Shown here one piece after another: positions 26,366 to 61,689 of a stretch of DNA of 64,000 nucleotides. Source of the stretch: Thiobacillus sp. (lineage in GTDB: Bacteria > Pseudomonadota > Gammaproteobacteria > Burkholderiales > Thiobacillaceae); contig JAUYCF010000042.1 of the NCBI GenBank assembly GCA_030692355.1, forward strand, positions 62,001-126,000, in the 5' to 3' direction. The number at the start of each line of letters is the position of its first letter. Positions within the stretch are counted from its first letter, which is position 1. Under the pieces are notes generated by a model, which saw only the letters and a list, made by a program, of their open reading frames with translations, did not search any database and had not been told where the DNA came from. A program made the translations under genes and the position numbers.

Positions 26366-28543
26366 GTGAACATGGATCAGGCATTACAGACCTATATCGA
26401 GGAAAGCCGAGGCTTGCTCGATGAAATGGAGAGCATCCTGCTGCGACTCGAAAGCGAGCCGCAGGATGAGGAAACGGTCAACGCCATGTTTCGTGCCGCG
26501 CACACCATCAAGGGCTCCGCAGGCTTGTTCGGGCTCGATGCGATCGTGGCCTTCACCCATGTTGTCGAAAATGTTCTTGACGAGGTGCGCGAAGGCACGC
26601 AGGCGGTCAATGGCGAACTTGTCGAGCTGCTGCTCAAGTGCTGCGACCACATCGGCCTGCTGATCACGGTGGTGGCAGAAGCCGGAGAGATGCTTGATAT
26701 GGAGCAGGCGGCTGCGGGCGAGGCGATTGCCGCTGTACTAAGGTCCCTGATGGGGGGGGCAGCCTCCGGTGTCGCCATGCCCGCGGTTCAAGAGCCCCGG
26801 CTCGATGCGAGCGGCGGGGGTCCGATCGAGGGTGACTATTGGCACATCTCGCTCGGCTTCGGGCCCGATGTGCTGAGAAACGGCATGGATCCTATCTCCT
26901 TCATCCGCTATCTCTCTACCATCGGCGATATCGTTTCGCTCAGGGTCGACGATAGCGAGCTGCCCGAACTGAACGCGATTGACCCGGAATCCTGCTACTT
27001 GAGCTTCTCGATCGAGTTCAAGAGCGAGGCGGACAAGAAAACCATCGAAGATGCCTTCGAGTTCGTGCGCGAGGACTGCAGGCTGCGTATTTTCCCCCCG
27101 CCGAGCCATCTCGCCGCTTTCGTCGAGCGACTCGAGCACGCGAGCGGCAATACCGACATGCTCGGCCAGTTGCTGATCGAGGCGGGCATTCTCACCAGCA
27201 ATGAGCTGGAGGATGCGCTGGCAGCGCAGGAAAATACGATGGCGGCTGGCGGTGGCGCCAAGCTGCCCATCGGCGAAGTTCTGGTCAAGGAAGGCGTGGT
27301 GCAGAAAGAGGTGGTGGATGTGGCGCTGGAGAAGCAGCGCCAGATTCGCGACCACAAAGCCCAGGAAGCCAAGTTCATTCGCGTGAGCGCGGAAAAGCTC
27401 GACGAACTCATCAATCTCGTCGGCGAACTGGTGATCGCCGGCGCCGGCGCTTCCTTGCTGGCCCATCGTTCCGGTGACGTGGCGTTGCATGAATCCACCT
27501 CCGTCGTATCGGGCCTGGTCGAGGAAATCCGCGACGGCGCACTCAAACTGCGCATGGTGGAAATCGGCGAGACCTTCAACCGCTTCCAGCGCGTCGTGCG
27601 TGATGTGAGCAAGGAACTGGGCAAGGACATCGGCCTGGAGATCAGCGGCGCAGAAACCGAGCTGGACAAGACCGTCGTCGAAAAGATCGGCGACCCTCTC
27701 ATGCACCTCGTGCGCAATGCCATGGATCACGGCATCGAGTCGGCCGAGGCGCGCATGGCGGCCGGCAAGCCGGCGAAGGGCAGCCTGCGGCTGAATGCCT
27801 ACCACGACTCCGGCAGCATCGTGATCGAAGTGGCGGATGACGGCGGCGGCCTCAAGAAGGAAAGGATCCTCAAGAAGGCGGTCGAGCGCGGCATCATCAG
27901 CCCCGGCCAGACCTTGTCGGATAACGATATTTACAACCTGATTTTCGAGGCCGGGTTTTCCACGGCGGACCAGGTCACCAGCCTCTCCGGCCGCGGCGTC
28001 GGCATGGACGTTGTCAAGCGCAACATCCAGGCACTGCGCGGCACGGTGGATATTGAAAGCCTGGAGGGACACGGCACAACGGTACGCATCCGGCTGCCGC
28101 TCACTCTGGCCATTATCGATGGCTTTCTTGTCGGCGTCGGCAAATCGGCTTTCGTGGTGCCGCTCGACATGGTGCTGGAATGCATCGAACTGTCGGACGC
28201 GGACAGAAAGGCTGCAGATACGCGCAACTACGTCAATCTGCGGGGCGAGGTGCTGCCCTTTGTCCGTCTGCGCGATCAATTCGAAGTCAATGCGGCCGCA
28301 GGCAAGCGGGAAAACATTGTGGTCGTGCAATACGGTGGGCAGAAGGCCGGATTTGTCGTGGATGAGTTGATGGGCGAGTTTCAGACCGTCATCAAGCCGC
28401 TGGGCAGTGTGTTCAGGCATTTGAGAGGTATTTCCGGTTCCACGATTCTGGGAACGGGCGAGGTGGCGCTGATTCTGGATGTGCCGGCACTGGTGCAGCT
28501 TGGGGTCGCGCGGGATGAGCAGATGGTCATGCATGGCGCGTGA
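26366..28543 (+). CDS. cheA: Chemotaxis histidine kinase CheA
   Basis: CheA passes receptor signals to CheY and CheB by phosphotransfer. The 725-residue protein has an HPt domain (residues 1-105, His46 in [12 protein letters not shown]), a P2-like region (about 155-255), two 24-residue MshEN-like repeats (about 265-325), a dimerisation helix pair (about 335-400), a HATPase ([11 protein letters not shown] near 450; [10 protein letters not shown] near 545) and a CheW-like domain (about 585-715). The GTG at 26366 has AAGGAG 7 bases upstream and beats the ATG at 26372. The inserted repeats are unusual. Confidence 0.95.
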
Positions 28544-28599
28544 TTGGGCCGGGTTTTTTTAGCGTTTCTATTTTTCAGAGATATACAGGAGTCGTGGCA

Positions 28600-30243
28600 A
28601 TGTTTAAGAACATGAGGATTGGAATGCGGTTGGGGATAGGCTTTGGCCTGGTTGTAGTGCTGATGATGATAATCGCCGTCATCGGAATCACCCGTATGGC
28701 CGTCCTGAACGCATCGCTGGAAAACGTCAACAATGACAAATGGCCGAAAATCCTGCTGCTGCAGGATGGATTGGCCGGCGTCAACGCGATCGGTCTGGGG
28801 GGGCGTGACATCCTGATGGCCACGGACAAGCAGGGTGTCCAGAGCGCGAAGGAAAACATTCTCGCGGGGCGCGCCAGCATCGGCAAGGCCTGGGAGCAGC
28901 TCAAGCCGACGCTGAACCAACCCAGGGGAATGGAGATGTTCCAGCTGATCCTCGACTCGCGCGAGAGATATATCGCGGCGCAGAATCAGATCATCAAGCT
29001 GGCCGAGGAAGGCAAGGTTGAAGAAGGCCGGGCATACATGGAATCTGAATTTCGCCCAGCGGCGAACGAATATCGCAAACGCGTCAACGACCTCATCCAG
29101 TTCCAGGGTGAACTCATGAACGAGTTGGGGAAAGCGGCGAGCGAGCAATACAACCAGGCGCGAATGCTGATGCTGGCCATGAGCGTGGCGGCCTTCCTGT
29201 TCGCGGCAGGGATTGCCTTCTGGGTCACCCGTTCCATCACCCGCCCGCTCGGCGAAGCCGTGGGCGTGGCCAATAGCCTCGCCGAAGGCGATTTCAGCGT
29301 GAAGATCGACGTGCAGTCCAGGGACGAGACCGGCATGCTGCTCACCGCGATGAAAAACATGGTGGAGCGGCTTTCGCAGATCATCACCGAGGTGCGTGGC
29401 GCGGCGGATAACCTGTCCAGTGCATCCGAAGAAGTGTCCGCAACGGCGCAATCCCTGAGCCAGGCTTCCAGCGAACAGGCGGCGAGCGTGGAAGAAACCT
29501 CCGCTTCGATCGAGCAGATGTCCGCGTCTATCGGCCAGAACACCGAGAACGCCAAAGTGACGGATGGCATGGCCTCCAAGGCGGCGAAGGAAGCCACCGA
29601 AGGCGGCGAGGCGGTCAAGGAGACTGTCGCCGCGATGAAGAGCATCGCCGGCAAGATCGGCATCATCGACGACATTGCCTACCAGACCAACCTGCTGGCG
29701 CTGAATGCAGCCATCGAGGCGGCGCGGGCCGGCGAGCACGGCAAGGGCTTCGCGGTGGTGGCGGCGGAAGTGCGCAAGCTGGCGGAACGCAGCCAGGTGG
29801 CGGCGCAGGAGATCGGCGAACTGGCGGGCGGCTCGGTGGACATGGCGGAACGGGCCGGCAAGCTGCTGGATGAAATGGTGCCAACCATCAACAAGACCTC
29901 GGATCTGGTGCAGGAAATCACCGCGGCCTCCGAAGAACAATCCTCCGGCGTCGGGCAGATCAACACGGCCATGTCCCAGCTGAACCAGATCACCCAGCAA
30001 AATGCTTCCAGTTCTGAGGAGTTGGCCGCCACGGCAGAAGAAATGAGCAGCCAGGCCGAGCAACTGCAACAGTCCATGAGTTTCTTCCGGCTCGAGAGCG
30101 GTTCTGGCGTCGCGATGTCGGGCGCCAGGAAAACAGACTCCCGGAAACATCTTCAGGTGGCTCATGCCAAGGGCGCTGGCAGCAAAAGCGCACCCAAAGC
30201 CGTAGCCGGCCCCAGTGACGAACTTGAGTTCGTCCGGTTTTAA
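28600..30243 (+). CDS. Methyl-accepting chemotaxis protein (4HB-type sensor)
   Basis: The product is a 547-residue receptor. A helix at residues 8-33 and a second at about 188-210 enclose a four-helix periplasmic sensor of about 155 residues. HAMP follows (about 211-265), then a long signalling coiled coil with the tip [21 protein letters not shown]. The C terminus is a flexible linker ending SDELEFVRF. The ATG at 28600 has AGGAG in front; an open frame from 28540 would add residues untypical of receptors. The signalling part is nearly identical to that of the receptor at 30856. Confidence 0.92.
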
Positions 30244-30804: not shown

Positions 30805-30855
30805 CCGCTGGCGTGCAAGCCATGGTTGCTGATGCTTTCAGAAAAAGGAACTGAA

Positions 30856-32865
30856 ATGAATACTTTTCTAAACAGGTTCGCTCTCGGCGAGAAATTTGTC
30901 TTTCTCGGTCTGCTGGTTCTGGTGCTGTTCGGCATGCCGACCTATCTGTTCATCTCCGGACTGAACGAAAGTACCGACTTTGCCGCCCGTGAGAGCACAG
31001 GCGCGGTGTATTTCAAGCCGGTGATGTCCCTGCTGCAGCACACGCAGCAGCATCGCGGGCTGTCCGGACTGGTGCTTAACGGTGCCACGGAAATGCGGTC
31101 GGAATGGGAGTCCAAGCGGCAGGACGTGGACAGAATCGTGGCGGAGGTCGATGAGATGGAAAAGCGCTATCCCGAACTCGGCCTCGGCAAGCAGTGGCAG
31201 GAGGTCAAGTCGGACTGGCAGGGCGTGAAGAACGACATCGCCGGACTGAACCCGCAGGAAAGCTTCAAGCGCCACAGTACCCTGGTGGACAAGCAAATCC
31301 GCCTGATCACGGCGATTGCCGACCAGTCCAACATCACTTATGACCCGACCGTGGATGGCTATCAGCTTGGTTCTCTGGCCACCGGACGCATGCCCATGAT
31401 CACTGAATACATGGGCCGGGTGCGCGCCCTGGGTGGGGGCATGCTGACCCGCCACAAGGCAACCCCGGACGAGCGTAGCGGCGTGGCAGCCTACATGGGT
31501 CTGGTGAAGCGTGAACTGGAAGGTATCCGCGATGCGCTGGACAAGGCCTACGTTGCCGATGCGGAGCTGAAGGGCAAGCTGGAAAACCTCTATCTTGATG
31601 CCGAGCGCCAGACGAATGCTGCGATCGCGATGGTGCAGGGTGAAATCGTCCAGCCTGAAATGCTGGGATTCTCTCCCCAGGAATATTCCGCAAAAATGAC
31701 AGAAACGATCGATGCCCTGTTTGAACTGTCCGATGCGGCCAATGTACAGCTTGAAGCCTCACTGCTGGCCCAGACCCAGCGCCTGATCACGAGGAAATAT
31801 ACCTTGCTCTCCACGGTCATTGCCTTGTTTGCGTTCAGCATCCTGCTGGGTGTGCTCACCGTGCGCAATGTCACCCGTTCAGCGCGGGTGGTGAGCGGTG
31901 GGCTGGAAAAACTGGCGAATGGCGACCTCGATCTTGATATTCCGGAAACGCCGGGACGGGACGAGCTGGCTTCGATGCAGCGTGATCTGCGCGGTACCGT
32001 TGCAAAACTGACGCAGATCATCACCGATGTTCGCTCAGCGGCGGACAACCTGTCCTCAGCCTCTGAAGAGGTATCTGCCACAGCGCAATCACTGTCTCAG
32101 GCGTCGAGCGAGCAGGCGGCGAGCGTGGAAGAGACTTCCGCCTCGATCGAACAGATGTCGGCCTCGATCAGCCAGAACACCGAGAACGCCAAGGTCACCG
32201 ACGGCATGGCCTCCAAGGCGGCGAAGGAAGCGACCGAAGGCGGCGAAGCGGTGAAGGAGACGGTCACTGCGATGAAGAGCATTGCTGACAAGATCGGCAT
32301 CATCGACGACATCGCCTACCAGACCAACCTGCTGGCGCTTAACGCGGCCATCGAAGCGGCGCGTGCCGGCGAGCACGGCAAGGGCTTCGCGGTGGTGGCG
32401 GCGGAAGTGCGCAAACTGGCGGAACGCAGCCAGGTCGCGGCGCAGGAAATCGGCGAAGTGGCCAAGGGCTCGGTGGGTCTGGCTGAAAAGGCCGGCAAGC
32501 TGCTGGACGAAATGGTGCCGTCGATCAACAAGACCTCGGACCTGGTACAGGAAATCACCGCGGCCTCGGAAGAGCAATCTTCCGGCGTGGGCCAGATCAA
32601 CACGGCGATGTCGCAGATGAATCAGATCACCCAGCAGAACGCCTCGGCTTCTGAAGAACTGGCGGCTACGTCGGAAGAGATGAGCAGCCAGGCCGAGCAG
32701 TTGCAGCAGACCATGAGCTTCTTCAAGCTGGGGAACGGGGGGGCAGCCAGCGCGAAAAATGCGGTGCAGGCGGCGCCTGTCAAGGCAACGAGCTCTGCAG
32801 GTGGCAGTCGTGCGGCGAAAGCTGTGCCTGTCGTCAGTGATGAACTCGAATTCGTTCGTTTCTGA
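30856..32865 (+). CDS. Methyl-accepting chemotaxis protein (large helical sensor)
   Basis: The product is a 669-residue receptor. Helices at about residues 14-35 and 318-338 enclose a periplasmic domain of about 280 residues, mostly helical, with [18 protein letters not shown] near its start; this resembles NIT-like nitrate-sensing helical domains, but the match is not firm. HAMP and a canonical signalling coiled coil follow ([21 protein letters not shown]). It ends SDELEFVRF like its neighbour. The ATG at 30856 follows AAGGAA. Nitrate taxis is a guess from fold resemblance and the nearby nar genes. Confidence 0.9.
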
Positions 32866-33737: not shown

Positions 33738-34241
33738 ATGCGCAAGCCGCCTCATGTCATTGAAATCTTCCTGAATCCCGGCGAATTCTATTTCGGCGAT
33801 CGGGATGTCCGTATCCGGACAATCCTGGGATCCTGCGTGTCCATCACGCTCTGGCATCCGAAATTGCTGATCGGCGGCATGTGCCACTACATGCTGCCGA
33901 GCCGGCAAGGGCGTGAAACGAAGCTGGCGGATGGCAAGTACGCGGATGAGGCCCTCGGGCTCCTGTTTGAGGAGATCCGCAGGAGCGGCACAGCGATTGA
34001 GGACTACGAGGTCAAATTGTTTGGCGGTGGCAATATGTTTCAGCGGCAGGTAACTGCGGAGCACGGCCATATCGGGATCAAGAATGCCGATGCCGGGCGG
34101 CATCTGCTGAAACACCATGGGCTGCGCCTGGCGTCGGAGGACCTGGGCGGCGCCGGCCATCGCACGGTGCTGTTCGATATCTGGTCGGGCCATGTATGGG
34201 TGCGCCAGTTTGCCCCGAAGGGCGTGGGCAATGACTTCTAA
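33738..34241 (+). CDS. cheD: Chemoreceptor glutamine deamidase
   Basis: CheD deamidates receptor glutamines to make methylation sites. The 167-residue protein has the catalytic Cys in GSCVSITLWHP (about residues 36-46), the active-site His in MCHYMLPSR and the conserved VKLFGGGNMF. It starts 16 bases after cheR and ends 12 bases before cheB, so the three adaptation enzymes form one unit. Confidence 0.94.
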   Translation: MRKPPHVIEIFLNPGEFYFGDRDVRIRTILGSCVSITLWHPKLLIGGMCHYMLPSRQGRETKLADGKYADEALGLLFEEIRRSGTAIEDYEVKLFGGGNMFQRQVTAEHGHIGIKNADAGRHLLKHHGLRLASEDLGGAGHRTVLFDIWSGHVWVRQFAPKGVGNDF

Positions 34242-34253
34242 AGCAAGGGATCT

Positions 34254-35330
34254 ATGTCGACAAATATAAAAGTCCTGGTCGTGGACGATTCCGCCGTGGT
34301 GCGGCAGGTGCTGTCCGAAGTGCTGAACGGTCATGCCGGTATCGAGGTGATCGCCGTTGCCGCCGACCCCATCTTCGCTCAGGAGAAGATGAAAAAGCAG
34401 TGGCCGGACGTGATTGTCCTGGACGTGGAAATGCCGCGCATGGACGGCATCACGTTCCTCAGAAAGATCATGGCGGAACGGCCGACGCCCGTGGTGATCT
34501 GCTCCTCGATTTCGCAGAAGGGATCGGAAACCGCCATGCAGGCCCTGGCGGCAGGCGCAGTCGGGGTCGTGCCCAAGCCGGGTATCGGCAACCGGCGCAT
34601 GGCGCTGGAAGACGCTGGCTCGGATCTGATTCGAGCCGTGAAAGCCGCGGCGCACGCCAATGTCCGGAATCTGAATGTCAGCAGCGGCGTGCCGCCCGCT
34701 GCCGTAATGCCCAAGCTCAACGCCGACGCGATTCTGCCCGCCATGAGCCAGGCCATGGCGCAGACGACCGAGCGCATCGTCGCCATCGGCACGTCCACCG
34801 GCGGCACCCAGGCGCTGGAAGCGGTGCTGACCGTGTTGCCGCGCGTGTCGCCCGGGATCGTCATCGTGCAGCACATGCCCGAGAAATTCACGGCCTCTTT
34901 CGCCGCCCGGCTCGATACCCTGTGCCAGATCGAGGTGCGCGAGGCGCAGAACGGCGATCGCGTCATGCCCGGTCGTGCGCTGATCGCCCCCGGCGGCAGA
35001 CACATGCTGCTCAAGCGCAACGGTTCCCAGTATCACGTCGAAGTGGTGGATGGCCCGGTGGTCAACCGTCATCGGCCTTCGGTGGATGTGTTATTCCGCT
35101 CGGTGGCCAAGTTCGCGGGCAGGAATGCCCTGGGCGTCATCATGACCGGTATGGGCGATGACGGTGCGCGCGGCCTCAAGGAAATGCACGATGCGGGTGC
35201 GCCGACCGTGGCGCAGGACGAAGCCACCTGCGTGGTCTACGGCATGCCCAAGGAGGCGGTGAAGCTGGGTGGGGTGGATCGCATCGTGTCGCTGCAGGCG
35301 ATTCCGGCAGAGATCATGAAATATGCGTGA
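34254..35330 (+). CDS. cheB: Chemotaxis glutamate methylesterase
   Basis: CheB removes receptor methyl groups when phosphorylated by CheA. The 358-residue protein has a receiver domain (residues 1-125, Asp in [11 protein letters not shown]) joined by a linker to the methylesterase domain (about 170-355). The catalytic triad regions are [11 protein letters not shown] (Ser), [15 protein letters not shown] (His) and [10 protein letters not shown] (Asp). Its stop codon overlaps the ATG of a short PAS-type frame at 35323. Confidence 0.96.
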
Positions 35331-35537
35331 ACTCGAAGAGATCGGCAATGCGAACAATCTCCGCTGTGAATCAGCAGATTCAGGCAATGAATTGCGCAAA
35401 AACGAGGCGCGTTTCAGCATGATTTTCAATGCGGCGCCGGATGCCATTTTCCTGCTCGATGCAGCAGGAAAATCCTGATGGTGAATTTGACGGCACAAAC
35501 GATGCTGGGTTGTCGCCTTGACGAAATGGTCGGCCAG
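35323..35537 (+). pseudogene. Frameshifted PAS-domain remnant
   Basis: An ATG at 35323, overlapping the cheB stop, opens a frame of 51 residues ending at 35478. It contains the start of a PAS domain: [20 protein letters not shown]. The PAS pattern continues one frame over as [13 protein letters not shown] and CRLDEMVGQ up to about 35537. Joining the two needs one extra A in the run at about 35469-35472, so this looks like a one-base deletion or a sequencing error. After 35537 the PAS homology stops abruptly at an antisense EAL fragment. Confidence 0.75.
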
Positions 35538-36137
35538 CACGAAGGAACGATCAACCTTGAGCACATCGATCGGGAACGGCTTGAGATAGGACAGCGAGGA
35601 ATAACCGGAGCCGAAATCGTCCACGGACAGCTGCTGCGCAATGGCCGCCGGCTGGATGTCGGTGTGCTTGAGCGCGAGCGCAGGGCACGTACCCTGCTGA
35701 TCGTCGACGACGAACCCGAGGTGCGGAGCGCACTGGCGCGCACGCTGCACGGAGAAGGCTGGCGCGTGCTTGGCGCGGGCGATGCATGCGAGGCGCTGGA
35801 TACGCTGGCCACCCATGGCGCGCAGGTCGTGCTGTGCGACCAGCACATGCCCGGCATGACGGGCAGCGAGTTCCTGGGGCGCATCAGGCAGGTGTTTCCG
35901 GAAACCGTCAGCATCATCTATTCCGGAAAAAATAACAAAGAAGCCATGAACGCTGCCGTCAGCGGGGGAATCGCATACAAGGCGCTGCACAAGCCCTGGG
36001 ACGATGATGAACTGCTCGAAATGGTCCGCGCAGCCTTCAACGCTTATGAGCATGAGGTGGAATCCTGCCGCGAGATGCCGATATGTGGCGGCAAGCTGGC
36101 CTGCTTCGACCGGGAATGCGGGAGGCGCGTGCAATGA
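35478..36137 (+). CDS. Receiver-domain protein, N terminus built from rearranged sequence
   Basis: The longest intact frame here gives 219 residues. Residues 1-20 are the tail of a PAS domain, residues 21-66 are the sense reading of an inverted EAL fragment and match no domain, and residues 70-185 are a good receiver: [15 protein letters not shown], Asp in [13 protein letters not shown], and the Lys in [14 protein letters not shown]. The final part has four Cys ([14 protein letters not shown], then FDREC). The receiver type resembles those attached to c-di-GMP enzymes. Whether it is expressed from 35478 is uncertain. Confidence 0.6.
35538..35675 (-). other. Inverted fragment of an EAL (c-di-GMP phosphodiesterase) domain
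   Basis: Read on the minus strand, 35538-35633 encodes a hallmark EAL segment, [17 protein letters not shown] followed by [14 protein letters not shown], and 35652-35675 encodes ALKHTDIQ, which normally directly precedes LSVDDFG. About 18 extra bases separate them. No EAL-motif start or C-terminal half is nearby on either strand, so this is a fragment of about 40 residues lying backwards inside the receiver gene. Confidence 0.85.
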
Positions 36138-37786
36138 GTCCTTCAATACATGATGGTGCTGCGCTGGAAGCGGCATTTCTGCATGCCGCCGTCGGCATGG
36201 CGATAACGGATATGGATGGGCGCATCGTGCGCGTCAACCCGGCATATGAGCGCATGCTCGGTTTCGAGGCGGACGAATTGGTGGGTGCGTTGATCGAGGA
36301 AGTGGTTCCCGCCAGCGACCCGGAGGAAGCCAGATCCCTGATGGAGGAGCTGCTGGCTGGCAGCGTTGATTCCTTTCGCCTGGAAAAAGTCTATCGGCGC
36401 AGCAGCGGCGAAGAGATGTGGATGTGTGCGACCGTTTCGCTGCTGCGGGACATCGATGGCCAGCCTGCTGGCAGTGTGCGGGTGGTCGAGGATGTCACCG
36501 ACCGCAAATATTTCGAGCGCTCGGTGGAGCAGCTGTCGCGCGAATACGAGGTGATCCTGAATACCGCCGGGTGGGGGATCGTCGGCGCCAACATCGACGG
36601 AAAGATCACGTTTGCCAACCCGTCGGCCGCGCGCATGCTGGGTTTCGATGTGGAAGATCTCCTTGGTCATGCGGTGCGCGAAATTCATCACGGCACGCTG
36701 GACGGGCTGTCCGGGGGCGAATGTGACGAGTGCATGATCTGCAGCGCGCTGCATGATGGGCTTTCGCGCCAGGGTAGCAATGACGTGCTGTGGCGGCGCG
36801 ACGGGACGAGCTTTCCGGTCGAGTTCACGATTACGCCCATCCTGGAGGAAGGGCTGGTTCAGGGCATCGTGCTTGCCTTCATGGACATTTCCGAGCAACT
36901 GCGCATCAAGCGCGAGCTGCACGAACGCATCCACGAGCTGACCGAGCTCAACCAGCGCCTCGAGACCATGCAGACGCAGCTGCTGCAATCGGAAAAAATG
37001 GCGGGCATCGGCCAGCTGGCGGCAGGCGTGGCGCATGAGATCAACAACCCCGTCGGCTTCGTCAGTTCCAACCTGAATACGCTCGAGAAGTATCTGTGTG
37101 ATCTGCTGAGTCTGGCCGATGCCTACGCAACAGCCGAACAGGATTGCGATGGAGTGGGCCACGCTGCGGTGTTCGACAGGGTGCACCAGATCAAGAAAAG
37201 CATGGATTTCGACTATCTGAACCAGGATGCGCGTGCGCTTGTCGTTGAGTCGAAGCATGGCCTTTCCCGGGTGAAGAAGATCGTGCAGGACCTGAAGGAC
37301 TTCTCCCATGTGGATGCCGCCGATGAATGGGTGTGGGCTGATCTCCATCAAGGTCTGGAAAGCACGCTCAATATTGTGTGGAACGATCTCAAGTACAAAT
37401 GCGAGGTGAAAAAGGAATTCGGCCTGCTGCCGGATGTCCTGTGCTTGCCTTCGCAGATCAACCAGATTTTCATGAATCTGCTGGCCAACGCCGGTCATGC
37501 CATCGAGCAGAACGGCACCATCACGCTGCGCAGCGGTCATGAGGGCGAGCAGGTCTGGGTGGAGATCGGCGATACCGGCAAGGGGATCGCACCCGAACAC
37601 CTGAGACGGATTTTCGATCCGTTTTTCACCACCAAGCCGATTGGCAAGGGAACCGGGCTGGGTTTATCCCTGGCCTATGGCATCGTGAAGAAACATCAGG
37701 GGCGCATCGAGGTACAAAGCAAAGTGGGGGTCGGCACCACTTTCCGGACCTGGTTGCCCGTTGGCGGCCCCATGGACAAGACATGA
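36134..37786 (+). CDS. PAS-PAS sensor histidine kinase (soluble)
   Basis: The product is 550 residues with no membrane helix. Two PAS domains (about residues 10-135 and 140-265) are followed by a HisKA-type helix with His in [15 protein letters not shown] (about 297-311) and a HATPase (about 420-545) with [14 protein letters not shown] and [14 protein letters not shown]. The second PAS has three spaced Cys (ECDECMIC, about 196-203). The ATG overlaps the previous stop (ATGA), and GGGAGG lies just upstream. It has no regulator of its own except the upstream receiver gene. Confidence 0.88.
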
Positions 37787-40707
37787 AGCGCGTATTCAAA
37801 AGCCTGCGTTCCCGGCTGATCGCATTGATATTGGTCGCAATGCTGCCCATGCTGGCGATCGCCTGGCTCATCGGCGCGCAGATGTACCACCATGCCGTCG
37901 ACGATGTTTACCGGGAGACGAAAACCCTGGTGCAGGACATTTCACTGCAGCAGGACAGGCATATCGATGCGGCGCGGCATTTGCTGATTGACTTGTCCGG
38001 CAGCCCGTCTCTCATCGAGCGCAGGCCGGGGTTTTGTTCGGTTTTCAGGGATGTGCTTGCAAAGCATGCAATTTTCGCCAATGCCGGCATGACCGATGTC
38101 GAGGGGAATGCCATCTGCAGCGGGGTTCCGATGCACCCGGCCAGCTTCAGCGACCGGCTGTGGTTCCGCCAGATACGCCAGGGAAATGCGATTGTGGTGG
38201 GCGACTATCATCTCGGCGTCATGATGAAAGAACCTGTGGTGATCGTCGCCAAGCCCATTCTGGGCAGGCGTGGCGAGCATCTGGCCTATCTGTTCGTGTC
38301 GGTGGATCTTTCCTGGTTCAATCGGCGCAGCCTCGGGAACGCATTGCCGGAGGGGGCCGAATTGATCTTTTACGATCATGACGGCGTCATTCTTCATCAT
38401 GAACCCGAGCCGGAAATCTGGCGCGGCCGACCTGCCGATGCGGCGATCCGGCAGATTGGCCTGGCGGATCCGGCGACCGGTGTGACCGAGGCGTATGGGG
38501 GGGATGGCATCTCGCGCCTGTTTAACTTTGTCCCGCTGGAAAGCAGCTCGGCCAGTGAAAATGCGTTTGTCGCCGTCGGCATTCCCACAGACACCGCGTT
38601 GGCGCAGGTGCGCCGCATCGGGGGATTGGCCGTGCTGGTTGTCCTGGGCGTATTCGGCGGAATGCTGCTGTTCGCCTGGGTCGGAACCGGGCGCCTGGTG
38701 ATTGCGCCGGTGCGCAGCCTGATCCGTCAGGCGAATGCGCATGCGGCGGGAGATCTGGCGCAACGCAGCGGGGTGGCTGAGGGCACCGAATTGAGTGAAC
38801 TCGCGCACGCACTGGACGGGATGGCGGTGAAGCTGGCCGCGCACCAACATGAACTGAGGCGGCACCTGGATGCGTTCAATGCGCACGCTATCGTAAGCGC
38901 TGCGGATACGGCAGGGAATATCATTTATGCAAACGACAAGTTCTGTGAAATCAGCCAGTACGCGCGGGAAGATATCATCGGAAAAACGCATCGACTGATC
39001 AACTCCGGTTTTCATCCGCCCGAATTTTTCTCCACGATGTGGGAAACGATTTCCCAGGGGAAAATCTGGCACGGTAACATCCGCAACCGGCGCAAGGACG
39101 GGAGCTATTACTGGGTGGCCTCGACCATCGTGCCTTTCGTTGATGATGACGGCCAGCTGGAACGTTACTTTTCGATTCGCACCGATATTACCCGTGCGCT
39201 GGCGATCGATGAGGCGCTTCAGAAAAGCGAGGAGCGTTTCCGGTTGCTGGCCAATAATGCGCTGGATGTGATTTCGCTGCACGATCCAGATGGCCGGTAC
39301 TCCTATGTCAGCCCCTCCTGCGAGCGCGTGCTGGGCTATGCGCCGGCCGATCTGGCCGGGCATGACTGCTACGAGCTGGTGCATCCGGACGATATCGAAC
39401 GGGTGCAAAGAATGCTGCATCAGCCTGCGCTGCTCGGCGAGCCGGGAGCGTGTGAGTATCGGGTGCGGCATCGGAATGGCGAGTACCTATGGGTGGATGC
39501 TTCCGCCGTGCCTACCCGTGACAAGACCGGGAAGATTGCGAGCATTCAGGTTTCCGTTCGCGACGTAACGGGCCGCAAGGCAGCGGAGGATACGTTGCGC
39601 CTGCATGACCGGGCGATTGCCGCGAGCGGAAGCGGTATCGTGATTTTCCGGCGCGGCGACCTCGGAATCGAGTATGCCAATGCGGCGTATTCGGACATCG
39701 TCGAGTTGCCGGAAGCGGACATACCCGGCCAGCGCTGGCCGGCATTGGCGGAAGCTGCGGGAAGTGTTGGCGCATGGCAATTCCTGCGCGACGCGGTGAT
39801 TTCGGGTGACGAGATGCATGCCGTGGTGGAGGGTGTGTCGCGTTATGGCCGCAACGTGTGGTGCGATGTGTTTGTCTCGCCGGTGCGCAGCGAGGGGCGT
39901 GCGATAACGCATTTTGTGGCGGCGATCAGCGATGTGACCGATCAGGTGATCATGGAAGCGGCGCTTGTGTGCGCCAAGGAGGCCGCAGAGCAGGCCAGTC
40001 AGGCCAAATCGACATTCCTCTCCCATGTCGGCCATGAGCTGCGGACACCGCTCAATTCCATCGTCGGTTTTGCCCAGTTGCTGGAATCCGACCCGCGCGC
40101 ACCGCTGAATGAGGAGCAACAGGACAGCGTCGAACGCATTCTGTGTTCCGGCTGGCAGTTGCGCGAACTGATCGATGATGTGCTGGACCTGTCCCGAATC
40201 GAGACCGGACGGCTGGAACTGAAGCCGGAGGATGTCAATGTATTTGACCTGATACGCGAGTGCCTGGAGATGATCGCCGCGCAGGCCGCCGAGAAAGGCC
40301 TGGAGATCGTCAATCCGGGCGGCGAATGTGCCCAGCAAATGGCGCGTGTCGATGTGAAACGCTTCAAGCAGGTGATGCTCAATTTGCTGAGCAACGCGGT
40401 GAAGTACAACCGCGAAGGCGGCCGCGTGACGGTGTCCTGCCACGTGTCGGACGACGGTGTCCTGCACATGGCCGTCAGCGATACCGGCATCGGTATTCCT
40501 CCGGAGAAGCGCGATGAACTGTTCCAGTATTTCAGCCGGCTGGACGCGGAAAACTCCGGCATTCCAGGTATTGGTGTGGGATTGGCGCTGTGCCGGCATC
40601 TGGTGGATTTGATGGGCGGTACTATCAGTGTGGAGAGCGTTCCGGGAGAAGGGAGTCGCTTCGAGATCGAACTTCCTGGCGCGTGCCGCCTGCCGGAAAC
40701 GGTTTGA
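37783..40707 (+). CDS. Cache/HAMP/triple-PAS sensor histidine kinase
   Basis: The product is a 974-residue membrane kinase. A helix at about residues 12-32, a Cache-type periplasmic sensor (about 40-280) and a second helix (about 284-306) lead into HAMP (307-360). Three PAS domains follow (about 370-480, 485-600, 605-720). HisKA has its His in SHVGHELRTPLNSIVGF (about 745), and HATPase is near 850-965 (VSDTGIGIPPEKRDELF). It has no attached receiver. The ATG overlaps the stop of the preceding kinase gene, suggesting the two are made together. Confidence 0.88.
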   Translation: MKRVFKSLRSRLIALILVAMLPMLAIAWLIGAQMYHHAVDDVYRETKTLVQDISLQQDRHIDAARHLLIDLSGSPSLIERRPGFCSVFRDVLAKHAIFANAGMTDVEGNAICSGVPMHPASFSDRLWFRQIRQGNAIVVGDYHLGVMMKEPVVIVAKPILGRRGEHLAYLFVSVDLSWFNRRSLGNALPEGAELIFYDHDGVILHHEPEPEIWRGRPADAAIRQIGLADPATGVTEAYGGDGISRLFNFVPLESSSASENAFVAVGIPTDTALAQVRRIGGLAVLVVLGVFGGMLLFAWVGTGRLVIAPVRSLIRQANAHAAGDLAQRSGVAEGTELSELAHALDGMAVKLAAHQHELRRHLDAFNAHAIVSAADTAGNIIYANDKFCEISQYAREDIIGKTHRLINSGFHPPEFFSTMWETISQGKIWHGNIRNRRKDGSYYWVASTIVPFVDDDGQLERYFSIRTDITRALAIDEALQKSEERFRLLANNALDVISLHDPDGRYSYVSPSCERVLGYAPADLAGHDCYELVHPDDIERVQRMLHQPALLGEPGACEYRVRHRNGEYLWVDASAVPTRDKTGKIASIQVSVRDVTGRKAAEDTLRLHDRAIAASGSGIVIFRRGDLGIEYANAAYSDIVELPEADIPGQRWPALAEAAGSVGAWQFLRDAVISGDEMHAVVEGVSRYGRNVWCDVFVSPVRSEGRAITHFVAAISDVTDQVIMEAALVCAKEAAEQASQAKSTFLSHVGHELRTPLNSIVGFAQLLESDPRAPLNEEQQDSVERILCSGWQLRELIDDVLDLSRIETGRLELKPEDVNVFDLIRECLEMIAAQAAEKGLEIVNPGGECAQQMARVDVKRFKQVMLNLLSNAVKYNREGGRVTVSCHVSDDGVLHMAVSDTGIGIPPEKRDELFQYFSRLDAENSGIPGIGVGLALCRHLVDLMGGTISVESVPGEGSRFEIELPGACRLPETV

Positions 40708-54556: not shown

Positions 54557-55689
54557 GCGTGCAGGCATTCGTCGCGGCGAACGCGCGCGAAGGCCTGGCG
54601 CGCGTTCGCCGCGAGCTGGGCGACGACGCCGTGGTGCTGTCCACGCGGCCGCACCCGCAGGGCGTCGAACTGCTGGCCAGCGCCTACGGCGAGCTGGCGG
54701 TGCCGGCGGCCAGCGAGGCGCCCGATACGGCCGGCAGCTCGCGCATCCTGAACGAGCTGTCGCGTCTGCGCGGCATGCTGCAAAACCAGCTGGCGGGCTT
54801 TGCCTGGGGCGCGGGACGGCGGCGCGATCCGGTGCGGGTGGCGCTGATGCAAACGCTGTTCGCCGCCGGGTTTGGCAACTCGCTCGCCCGCACCCTGGCG
54901 GCGCGCCTGCCGCGCGGGCTCGATGCCGACGCCGCCCGGCGCTGGCTGCGCCAGGTGCTGATCCGCAACCTGCCGGTGCAGGGGCGCGAAGCCGACCTGC
55001 TGGCGCGGGGCGGGCGTTACGCGCTGGTCGGCTCGACCGGATCGGGCAAGACCACCACGCTGGCCAAGCTCGCCGCACGCGGCGTGGATGCGCATGGTGC
55101 CGGCGAGGTGGTGCTGGTGGCCGCCGATGCCTACCGCATCGGCGCAGCAGCGCAATTGACGGTATATGCCGACCTGTTGGGCGTGGCGCTGCATGTGGCT
55201 GAAGACCAGGCCAGGCTGGCGCAGCTGTTGCCTGAGCTCGCCGCCAAAAAACTGGTGCTGATCGACACCGCGGGGTTTGCGCCGGCCGACCCGCGTAGCC
55301 GCGAGGGGCAAGCGCTCGATGCCTTGGGCGTGCGCCGTCTGCTGGCGATTTCCGCCAGCCAGCAGGGGGCGGCGATTGAGCAGGCGATGGCGTATTTTGG
55401 CCAGGGCGCGGCCGCCTGCATTCTCACCAAGCTCGATGAAACCCCGCAGCCGGGCGCGGCGCTCGACAGCCTGATCCGCCATCGCCTGCCGCTGGCGTAT
55501 ATCAGCGGCGGGCAGCGCGTGCCGGAGGACCTTCACGTGCCCAACGCCGCCTACCTCATCGACCGCGCGTTGAAGGGGGGACGGCTCGCCACCCCGTATG
55601 CGCTGGAGGCCGAAGACTGGCCGCTGTTTGCCGGCGTCGAGGCCGAACGCGCCGAGCGCCGCACCCTGAAGGGCATGGATGGCGCCTGA
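54553..55689 (+). CDS. flhF: Flagellar biosynthesis GTPase FlhF
   Basis: FlhF is an SRP-type GTPase that sets polar flagellum position and number. The product is 378 residues. An N-terminal B domain (KEG-like region, about 1-75) leads to the N and G domains. G motifs are VGSTGSGKTTTLAKLAA (about 157-173), VLIDTAGF and ILTKLDETP. The ATG overlaps the flhA stop. Its usual partner FlhG is represented here only by a degenerate protein. Confidence 0.94.
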   Translation: MSVQAFVAANAREGLARVRRELGDDAVVLSTRPHPQGVELLASAYGELAVPAASEAPDTAGSSRILNELSRLRGMLQNQLAGFAWGAGRRRDPVRVALMQTLFAAGFGNSLARTLAARLPRGLDADAARRWLRQVLIRNLPVQGREADLLARGGRYALVGSTGSGKTTTLAKLAARGVDAHGAGEVVLVAADAYRIGAAAQLTVYADLLGVALHVAEDQARLAQLLPELAAKKLVLIDTAGFAPADPRSREGQALDALGVRRLLAISASQQGAAIEQAMAYFGQGAAACILTKLDETPQPGAALDSLIRHRLPLAYISGGQRVPEDLHVPNAAYLIDRALKGGRLATPYALEAEDWPLFAGVEAERAERRTLKGMDGA

Positions 55690-60981: not shown

Positions 60982-61365
60982 GTCATTGCGAGGCGAAGCC
61001 GAAGCAATCCAGAGTGCGTGCGGATGAATTCGCCTAAGCAGCCCGTGGTCTACATCCTCGCCAGCAAGCGAAATGGCACGCTTTATATCGGCGTGACATC
61101 GGATCTCGTCAAGCGGATATGGCAGCACAAGAATGATTTGGCTGATGGATTCACAAAGCAATACTCGGTGCACCTGCTGGTCTATTACGAACTTGCCGAT
61201 GAGATGAGTGCGGCCATTGCGCGGGAAAAGCAGATCAAGGGTGGATCAAGGGCCAGGAAGATCGCTTTGATCGAATCGATGAATCCTGGCTGGCGCGATT
61301 TATATGACGACATACTTGGTTAGCGCACGTAGTCCTGGATTGCTTCGGCTGCGCCTCGCAATGAC
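60982..61365. mobile_element. GIY-YIG gene bounded by 31-bp inverted repeats
   Basis: The left repeat (60982-61012) begins GTCATTGCGAGGCG and ends GAAGCAATCCAG. The right repeat (61335-61365) is its reverse complement with one mismatch in 31 bases. Between them lies one intact GIY-YIG gene. The unit is 384 bases and interrupts the sdh operon. No target duplication is evident. Mobility is inference from the layout. Confidence 0.6.
61024..61323 (+). CDS. GIY-YIG domain nuclease-like protein
   Basis: The product is 99 residues, a single GIY-YIG domain. VYILASKRNGTLYIGVTSDL (residues 9-28) holds the two tyrosine motifs (VYI and YIG), RIWQH has the conserved Arg, and the Glu-containing AAIAREKQIKGG follows. 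This family (UvrC/Slx1-like small proteins) is very common in bacteria, often near short repeats, and its role is not settled. It lies between sdhA and sdhB in the sdh direction, within inverted repeats. Confidence 0.9.
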   Translation: MNSPKQPVVYILASKRNGTLYIGVTSDLVKRIWQHKNDLADGFTKQYSVHLLVYYELADEMSAAIAREKQIKGGSRARKIALIESMNPGWRDLYDDILG

Positions 61366-61689
61366 GGCTTACCCGGTCATTGCGAGCGACGCGAAGCAAT
61401 CCAGAATGCATGCGAAGTCGATGGCCCGTGAGTCACTTTGGCCTTCGGTACACCGCAACGATTGCTCAACCCAGCGTTTCCTTGGCGCGCGTAGTCCTGG
61501 ATTGCTTCGGCTTTGCCTCGCAATGACGGCTTGCCCGGTCATTGCGAGCGACGCGAAGCAATCCAGAATGCGTGCAAAGTCGATGGCCCGCGAGCTGCTT
61601 CGGCCTTCGGCTCCCCGCAACGATTGCTCGAACCAGCGTTTCATTGGTGCGCGTAGCCCTGGATTGCTTCGGCTGCGCCTCGCAATGAC
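61325..61689. repeat. 162-bp tandem repeat with nested 31/29-bp inverted units
   Basis: Two full units (61325-61486 and 61487-61648) and a 41-base partial unit (61649-61689) follow one another at exact 162-base spacing. Each unit starts with the CTGGATTGCTTCGGCT to CGCAATGAC element (61335-61365, 61497-61527, 61659-61689), followed by an inverted copy from GTCATTGCGAGCG to AATCCAG (61376-61404, 61538-61566) with about 10 bases between. An open frame of 134 codons through it is a by-product, since 162 is divisible by three. Confidence 0.88.

Follow-up and report, generated by a model that had tools for sequence, protein, structure and literature searches.

Template-switch and microhomology rearrangements are complex events in which deleted and inverted segments occur together and the joins share few bases. 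Intragenic invertible elements exist as well, and receivers can stand alone, as in the single-domain CheY-like response regulators, which have a receiver with the canonical residues and no output domain. Such rearrangements are described for starving Escherichia coli (PMC3161906) and framed in the MMBIR model (PMC2621351), and quasipalindrome mutations in E. coli arise when a template switch turns an imperfect inverted repeat into a perfect one (PMC7202029). Template switching is also presented as a source of protein changes in yeast; there, inverted spacers measure 2-5 bp and changes affect up to five neighbouring residues (PMC8604942).

Here, we present an analysis of one locus in the window, i.e., the whole stretch of DNA analysed (64,000 nucleotides of a Thiobacillus sp. 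contig). The locus encodes a receiver whose N-terminal lead-in is read in part from the antisense strand of an EAL domain. Our complete explanation, which covers history, process, and function and to which we assign a probability of about 65%, is that a multidomain gene with GGDEF and EAL domains was cut down by replication template switching to a receiver that would be driven by a neighbouring histidine kinase.

Results

The hybrid reading frame lies at 35478..36137 on the plus strand and encodes 219 amino acids. From its ATG at 35478, about 20 PAS residues and a linker of about 31 residues antisense to EAL are followed by an EAL tail, the receiver (REC), and a four-cysteine tail. The minus strand carries an open frame at 35091-36173, residues 181-230 of which match profile positions 148-195 of Pfam EAL (PF00563) with E=2.9e-9; at 37.1 bits, this match passes the curated cut-off of 31.3, although just 48 of the 236 profile positions are covered. 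According to Pfam, a full sense EAL domain with the catalytic residues is absent from the receiver gene, in which only profile positions 148-195 are found, in antisense. Because the match is partial and antisense, we consider the piece to be a relic and not an EAL enzyme. Two short test peptides from the minus strand had no Pfam hit; as they were taken from outside the EAL frame, they do not bear on this match. The first-pass annotation had assigned all of 35538-35675 to antisense EAL and had suggested the search against PF00563 that returned this significant match. Its assignment holds for the 31-residue minus-strand peptide, which gives the E value of 2.9e-9, but not for the part with the motif ALKHTDIQ (about 35640-35675), a stretch that aligns in sense to the EAL C-terminal tail and linker of the relatives G034, G050, and G013. 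Its description of the linker as antisense EAL is correct up to near 35631; from there to 35675, the linker is sense tail.

At the DNA level, the inverted EAL fragment occupies 35537..35631 on the minus strand (positions 215-309 of the query). We searched 56 genomes in the genus, the genome of the window included, and among the matches listed, the best outside the window were to the sense EAL regions of G013 (93%), G050 (92%), G009 (91%), G034 (89%), and G010 (88%); in G013, G034, and G050, the EAL gene matched at 89-93% identity sits at the syntenic place. The matches in the window's own genome are other EAL genes, which are 73-76% identical across 72-98 bases, while a single part of 47 bases reaches 85%. 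We considered a donor elsewhere in this genome and rejected it, as no close copy was found and the syntenic gene of the relatives is the closest source. In G013, G034, and G050, the EAL piece shares its strand with the receiver of the same locus, whereas in the window the two are on opposite strands, and the inverted piece was present in none of the nine relative stretches that were fetched. Among nine sequences (the window and eight relatives), 4 of 93 positions in the piece are private to the window. Two of these four changes would alter an EAL residue (T to S in DDFGTG, and L to P), and EAL residue variation among the eight relatives consists here of V/A and V/I only.

The hybrid gene borders on a chemotaxis cluster. 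Upstream of it, cheB (34254..35330, plus strand) provides a syntenic anchor: by blastn, 34000-35330 and beyond match at 81-92% in seven of the nine fetched stretches, while L112 and L113, the other two, have no match to the 34000-35330 cheB stretch. Downstream, the anchor is a sensor kinase gene at 37783..40707 on the plus strand (HAMP, PAS, HisKA, and HATPase, with a weak dCache match). The first-pass annotation had proposed that an ancestral PAS-(GGDEF)-EAL-REC gene suffered an internal deletion and inversion, and that the locus after cheB in relatives might hold the intact gene. This proposal is borne out by intact syntenic frames in G034 and G013, which by Pfam encode PAS-PAS-GGDEF-EAL-REC (863 aa) and MASE3-PAS-PAS-GGDEF-EAL-REC (1134 aa), respectively, after the same cheB. 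For these two, the full PAS-GGDEF-EAL-REC architecture is established by Pfam; G050 has it in part, as a 660-aa piece with EAL and then REC in an open frame on a contig that ends before cheB. The gene downstream of the EAL-REC frame is the same in all three. G010 and G047 encode MASE3-PAS-GGDEF-EAL without REC (Pfam), and in G010, G014, G046, and G047 the frame stops soon after the EAL domain. By alignment rather than Pfam architecture, G107, G056, and G006 have similar receivers with an EAL-tail-like lead-in in frames of 1076-1261 aa. More broadly, receivers like that of the window were matched at E 1e-18 in 34 of 117 genomes of the family, its own included, several of them in frames of 800-1260 aa. 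In a scan covering 80 of 156 relatives, none of the matches listed that span most of the receiver exceeded 42% identity, and short local ones reached up to 74%.

Base-level mapping places the end of PAS identity at 35537/35538, the inverted EAL from 35537 to 35628-35631, and the start of the sense EAL tail at 35628-35632. The first junction (PAS to inverted EAL, 35536..35538) shares 1-2 nt and the second (inverted EAL to sense EAL tail, 35628..35631) 1-4 nt, counts that vary with the relative taken as a stand-in for the ancestor. The sense C-terminal EAL tail and the linker to the receiver follow at 35632..35690 on the plus strand, as judged by alignment with G013, G034, and G050. At all five loci compared, 35477-35537 is identical to the PAS region of the relatives at 40-48 of 61 bases and to the antisense-EAL flank at 21-25 of 61, which is no more than random comparisons give (a mean of 23.4 and a maximum of 28 among 300), in agreement with the earlier claim that PAS similarity ends where the EAL piece begins. 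A same-strand blast extension in G029 had suggested that antisense EAL extends upstream of 35537; we reject this because the EAL gene of G029 is carried in an open frame and because PAS fits so much better than the antisense flank. A blast extension similar to that in G029 was seen in G039.

Compared with G034, approximately 1.6 kb and 0.19 kb are missing. We consider it very probable that a PAS-PAS-GGDEF-EAL-REC ancestor lost these two segments and kept about 95 EAL bases, inverted, between them. The larger loss would comprise the rest of PAS, GGDEF, and the first part of EAL; the smaller one would be part of the EAL C-terminus. In the process that we favour, replication template switching, the growing strand would have moved onto the opposite strand within the EAL region, copied backward there, and then continued on the EAL tail. 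Deletion and an inverted segment are both present, and the shared bases at the joins (1-2 and 1-4 nt) are barely above chance. Two ordinary steps, an inversion from PAS to EAL and then a deletion that took away the greater part of the inverted DNA together with what follows it, would have yielded an identical final sequence, and because the joins share just 1-4 nt, the junctions cannot tell this route from one replicative event. The two-step route presupposes, however, that two separate rearrangements had one end region in common, and in the present sequence the inverted piece lacks flanking inverted repeats of any size worth noting, although any repeat within the deleted DNA would be gone; we therefore regard it as rather unlikely. 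A small inversion within a coding frame is also reminiscent of an invertible element inside a gene that a recombinase flips. Yet no inverted repeat pair is listed that flanks 35537-35631, and since about 1.8 kb is gone, flipping the piece back would not restore the EAL domain, making this explanation highly improbable. By title, our literature searches gave nothing on intragenic inversions among the matches listed.

An origin of the inverted join in vitro or in the assembler also has to be weighed. Tiny overlaps at inverted joins are a typical feature of chimeras formed in strand-displacement amplification. Chimeras in such reactions are the subject of PMC9484634. Moreover, the rearranged form occurs in one genome, a draft of 117 contigs, and EAL copies lie at contig ends in the same assembly (C23, C43, and C44). 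If the join were an artefact, however, the true copy would be expected in an assembly rated 99.99% complete, in which no close GGDEF-EAL copy was found: with the G013 and G034 DNA of the missing part as queries, only paralogues were detected in this assembly (63-69% identity in matches of at least 250 bases, up to 87% in shorter ones), while the inverted piece itself was matched at 89-93%. In addition, the locus is far from the ends of its 186-kb contig, and the inverted piece carries private changes and does not duplicate any of the other EAL sequences detected in the assembly, the best of which is 76% identical across most of its length. The private changes and the lack of a source copy are unlike an assembly chimera, and we judge an artefact to be improbable.

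The N-terminal part of PAS has become a separate reading frame at 35323..35478 on the plus strand, which begins inside the end of cheB and has 51 codons and an early stop. Its assignment is based on DNA similarity to the PAS region of the relatives and on a PAS_8 match of E=0.0063 and 16.8 bits, under the curated cut-off of 21.8. A frame slip near 35463-35478 splits these 51 codons from the hybrid frame; with this slip and the truncation at 35537, no intact PAS domain is found over 35323-35537, while open copies of the PAS-containing gene exist in relatives. A perfect inverted repeat occupies 35446..35473, with 11-nt arms at 35446-35456 and 35463-35473 and a loop of 6 nt, and the slip lies in or beside its second arm. 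By eye, 1-2 of the 11 bases of the first arm are different in G009, G010, G013, and G034, the second arm differs strongly, and all four lack the perfect repeat. Such perfect stems gave seven hits at five places in the 64-kb window, overlapping registers being counted twice, and 3 hits in the first and 0 in each of the other nine of ten random sequences of equal dinucleotide composition. The frame slip probably stems from a further template switch, at an imperfect small hairpin within PAS. This match to quasipalindrome template switching, drawn from comparison with the relatives, was noticed post hoc; alternatively, a simple slip may lie behind it. Elsewhere in the window, a perfect hairpin with a stem of at least 11 nt lies inside an open reading frame at 54577-54609, and two near-identical perfect hairpins at 61355-61386 and 61517-61548, 162 bases apart, look like a short interspersed repeat.

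The hybrid frame starts where the PAS fragment ends, its ATG overlapping the stop codon in the sequence TGATG (35476-35480). Across the inverted piece, the register read by the hybrid frame is open in the antisense of EAL in seven of eight relatives, while both remaining registers are interrupted by stops in every one of the eight. The openness of the hybrid frame is thus a by-product of codon use and weak evidence for selection, and the in-frame join at both ends of the antisense piece is a modest coincidence. In an AlphaFold2 prediction with a seven-sequence alignment, the mean pLDDT was 64.5 (45.2-64.5 across the five models), with block means of 77-91 for residues 71-190, which correspond to the receiver, and below 50 for residues 1-59 and 199-219; the antisense linker is without a confidently predicted fold.

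That the plus strand here encodes a receiver, as first annotated, is confirmed by a Response_reg match of E=9.8e-22 in the frame 35478-36137, which covers positions 2-111 of the 111 in PF00072 with 77.7-78.5 bits. The REC domain is delimited at 35697..36029 on the plus strand by this match, alignment, and pLDDT. In a four-orthologue alignment, the window has the acidic pair, the phospho-accepting D, the S/T, and the K of PF00072 (DD/D/S/K), residues whose roles we assume from CheY. By comparison, G013 (DG/D/S/R) and G050 (DS/N/S/K) have each lost two canonical residues and G034 (DS/N/S/R) three, and their Response_reg scores are 55.2 (G013), 51.0 (G034), and 59.7 bits (G050) versus 78.5 in the window. 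The tail that follows, C-x5-C-x5-C-x4-C at 36066..36119 on the plus strand, is common to G013, G034, and G050 and missing in three more distant proteins aligned (L152, L155, and L157); it is possibly a metal site.

Based on these sequence features, the receiver is probably still used, without a c-di-GMP output. With the same history, the locus could instead be a decaying pseudogene, in which the PAS fragment and the receiver are inactive and stops have not yet accumulated. Consistent with decay, PAS has slipped frame, all output domains are gone, two mutations in the inverted piece change residues, and the deletion may be recent. dN/dS points both ways. For REC, it is 0.29-0.33 between the window and the three relatives (an average over a branch that may mostly predate the deletion), close to the 0.31-0.32 between G013 and the other two, which favours continued use; on the side of decay, lower values were obtained for REC between G034 and G050 (0.24), cheB (0.10-0.18), the downstream kinase gene (0.20-0.27), and GGDEF-EAL between G013 and G034 (0.15), so that REC exceeds its neighbouring genes. 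A pseudogene does not, however, sit well with a receiver that keeps every canonical residue, has the best Pfam score of the four, is read in 168 open codons from the EAL tail to the stop without a gap relative to G013, and is part of an overlapping gene run with an apparently intact kinase. Weighing both sides, we find the pseudogene reading possible and still doubtful. dS for REC between the window and G013 is 0.735 (35631-36134 against L110), much above the 0.262 of the adjacent cheB, and therefore the history of the gene may include replacement or faster change.

The receiver stop overlaps the start of a PAS-PAS histidine kinase gene (ATGA) at 36134..37786 on the plus strand, with Pfam matches to PAS, HisKA (25.6 bits, just below the cut-off of 26.9), and HATPase_c. 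Altogether, stop and start overlap at four boundaries (cheB/PAS, PAS fragment/hybrid, receiver/kinase, and kinase/kinase), of which the TGATG between the PAS fragment and the hybrid was created by the frame slip. The kinase is missing from the corresponding position in G013, G034, and G050, and any match to it at E 1e-60 was found in 4 of 56 genomes of the genus, the window's own included. Nevertheless, REC is followed by a short open frame in G034 (55 codons) and in G050 (64 codons), and the beginning of each matches that of the window kinase. For this N-terminal remnant, 0 of 2000 shuffles did as well in each of the two genomes; a C-terminal remnant was not significant in G034 (1006 of 2000) or G050 (143 of 2000). 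In G013, no more than a weak trace is seen, at the C-terminus (59 of 2000, compared with 1933 of 2000 for the N-terminus). Because of the remnants of its start, the kinase was most likely ancestral in G034 and G050 and then lost, which disfavours our first idea, suggested by its lack in G013, G034, and G050, that the lineage of the window had gained it. Receiver integrity is not strictly linked to an adjacent kinase: the receivers of G006 and G056 are canonical, yet at E 1e-10 the DNA fetched for them (a stretch of 9 kb and a contig of 6.6 kb, respectively) gave no match to the kinase, and an intact receiver accordingly needs no adjacent kinase.

Two further observations concern genes of this type and the surroundings of the locus. 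The end of contig C43 and the start of contig C23 in the same genome (loci L127 and L126) carry what by eye appear to be the halves of another PAS-GGDEF-EAL-REC gene, apparently broken by the assembler in the EAL region and followed by a kinase 57-59% identical to the core of the one at 36134-37786. The neighbouring chemoreceptor genes at 28540-30243 and 30826-32865 have signalling domains that by eye are almost the same, which suggests gene conversion or a recent duplication.

Discussion

Our analysis retains the ancestral gene and the rearrangement of the first-pass annotation and refines them in three respects: the antisense part ends near 35631, PAS underwent a separate frame slip, and the neighbouring kinase gene is involved. 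In the history that we favour, the ancestor gene would have sat between cheB and a histidine kinase, and template switching would have removed its output while leaving PAS and receiver sequence on either side of the inverted piece. The hybrid would be translated by restart at TGATG within the run of overlapping genes, and the product would be a receiver with an unstructured N-terminal linker that obtains its phosphate from the adjacent PAS-PAS kinase; the leftover protein would no longer make or break c-di-GMP. On the sequence data, we lean slightly toward this account of restart, phosphorylation by the adjacent kinase, and absence of c-di-GMP turnover.

The relatives suggest that the pair of genes was split in two ways: the lineage of the window would have kept the kinase and the receiver and lost the enzyme, and others would have kept the enzyme and lost the kinase, with the receiver degenerating. 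Because four genomes are compared and G006 and G056 are counterexamples, this picture stays a suggestion. More tentatively, we speculate that it amounts to reciprocal loss, in which a template-switched enzyme became a stand-alone, kinase-driven receiver with a linker from the antisense of a catalytic loop, while the sisters lost the kinase and their receiver decays. The rule suggested by this scheme is that a receiver degenerates once its kinase is lost and survives with the kinase once the output is lost.

Among described systems, the closest include the PAS-GGDEF-EAL-REC proteins of the same genus (G034 and G013, and G050 in part), which have what would be the direct ancestor architecture and align in the EAL tail and the receiver; the window protein differs in being without GGDEF and without sense EAL. 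Single-domain CheY-like regulators resemble the window receiver in their domain content; in contrast to them, it would have arisen by loss of output, and it has an extra N-terminal linker and the four-cysteine tail. We found no report of a comparable antisense-linker receiver among the matches listed in the open-licence literature searched. With regard to process, the window differs from the microhomology and MMBIR cases in that its rearrangement is confined to a single gene and is known as an end product from genome sequence, and not from a laboratory lineage or as a human variant. As in the E. coli quasipalindrome work (PMC7202029), an imperfect inverted repeat would have become perfect, here at the frame slip, although in our case the change is deduced from sequences of relatives. 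Likewise, the yeast cases (PMC8604942) share with the window the homogenisation of arms and inverted stretches in coding genes, whereas in the window the inversion spans about 95 bases and entire domains are gone. The mutational process is already known in bacteria and yeast, and the locus is one more instance of it, not a new kind of system. Its value lies in being a clean case with ancestor-like relatives at hand, in which a replication accident would have stripped a signalling enzyme of its output and made coding sequence from the antisense strand.
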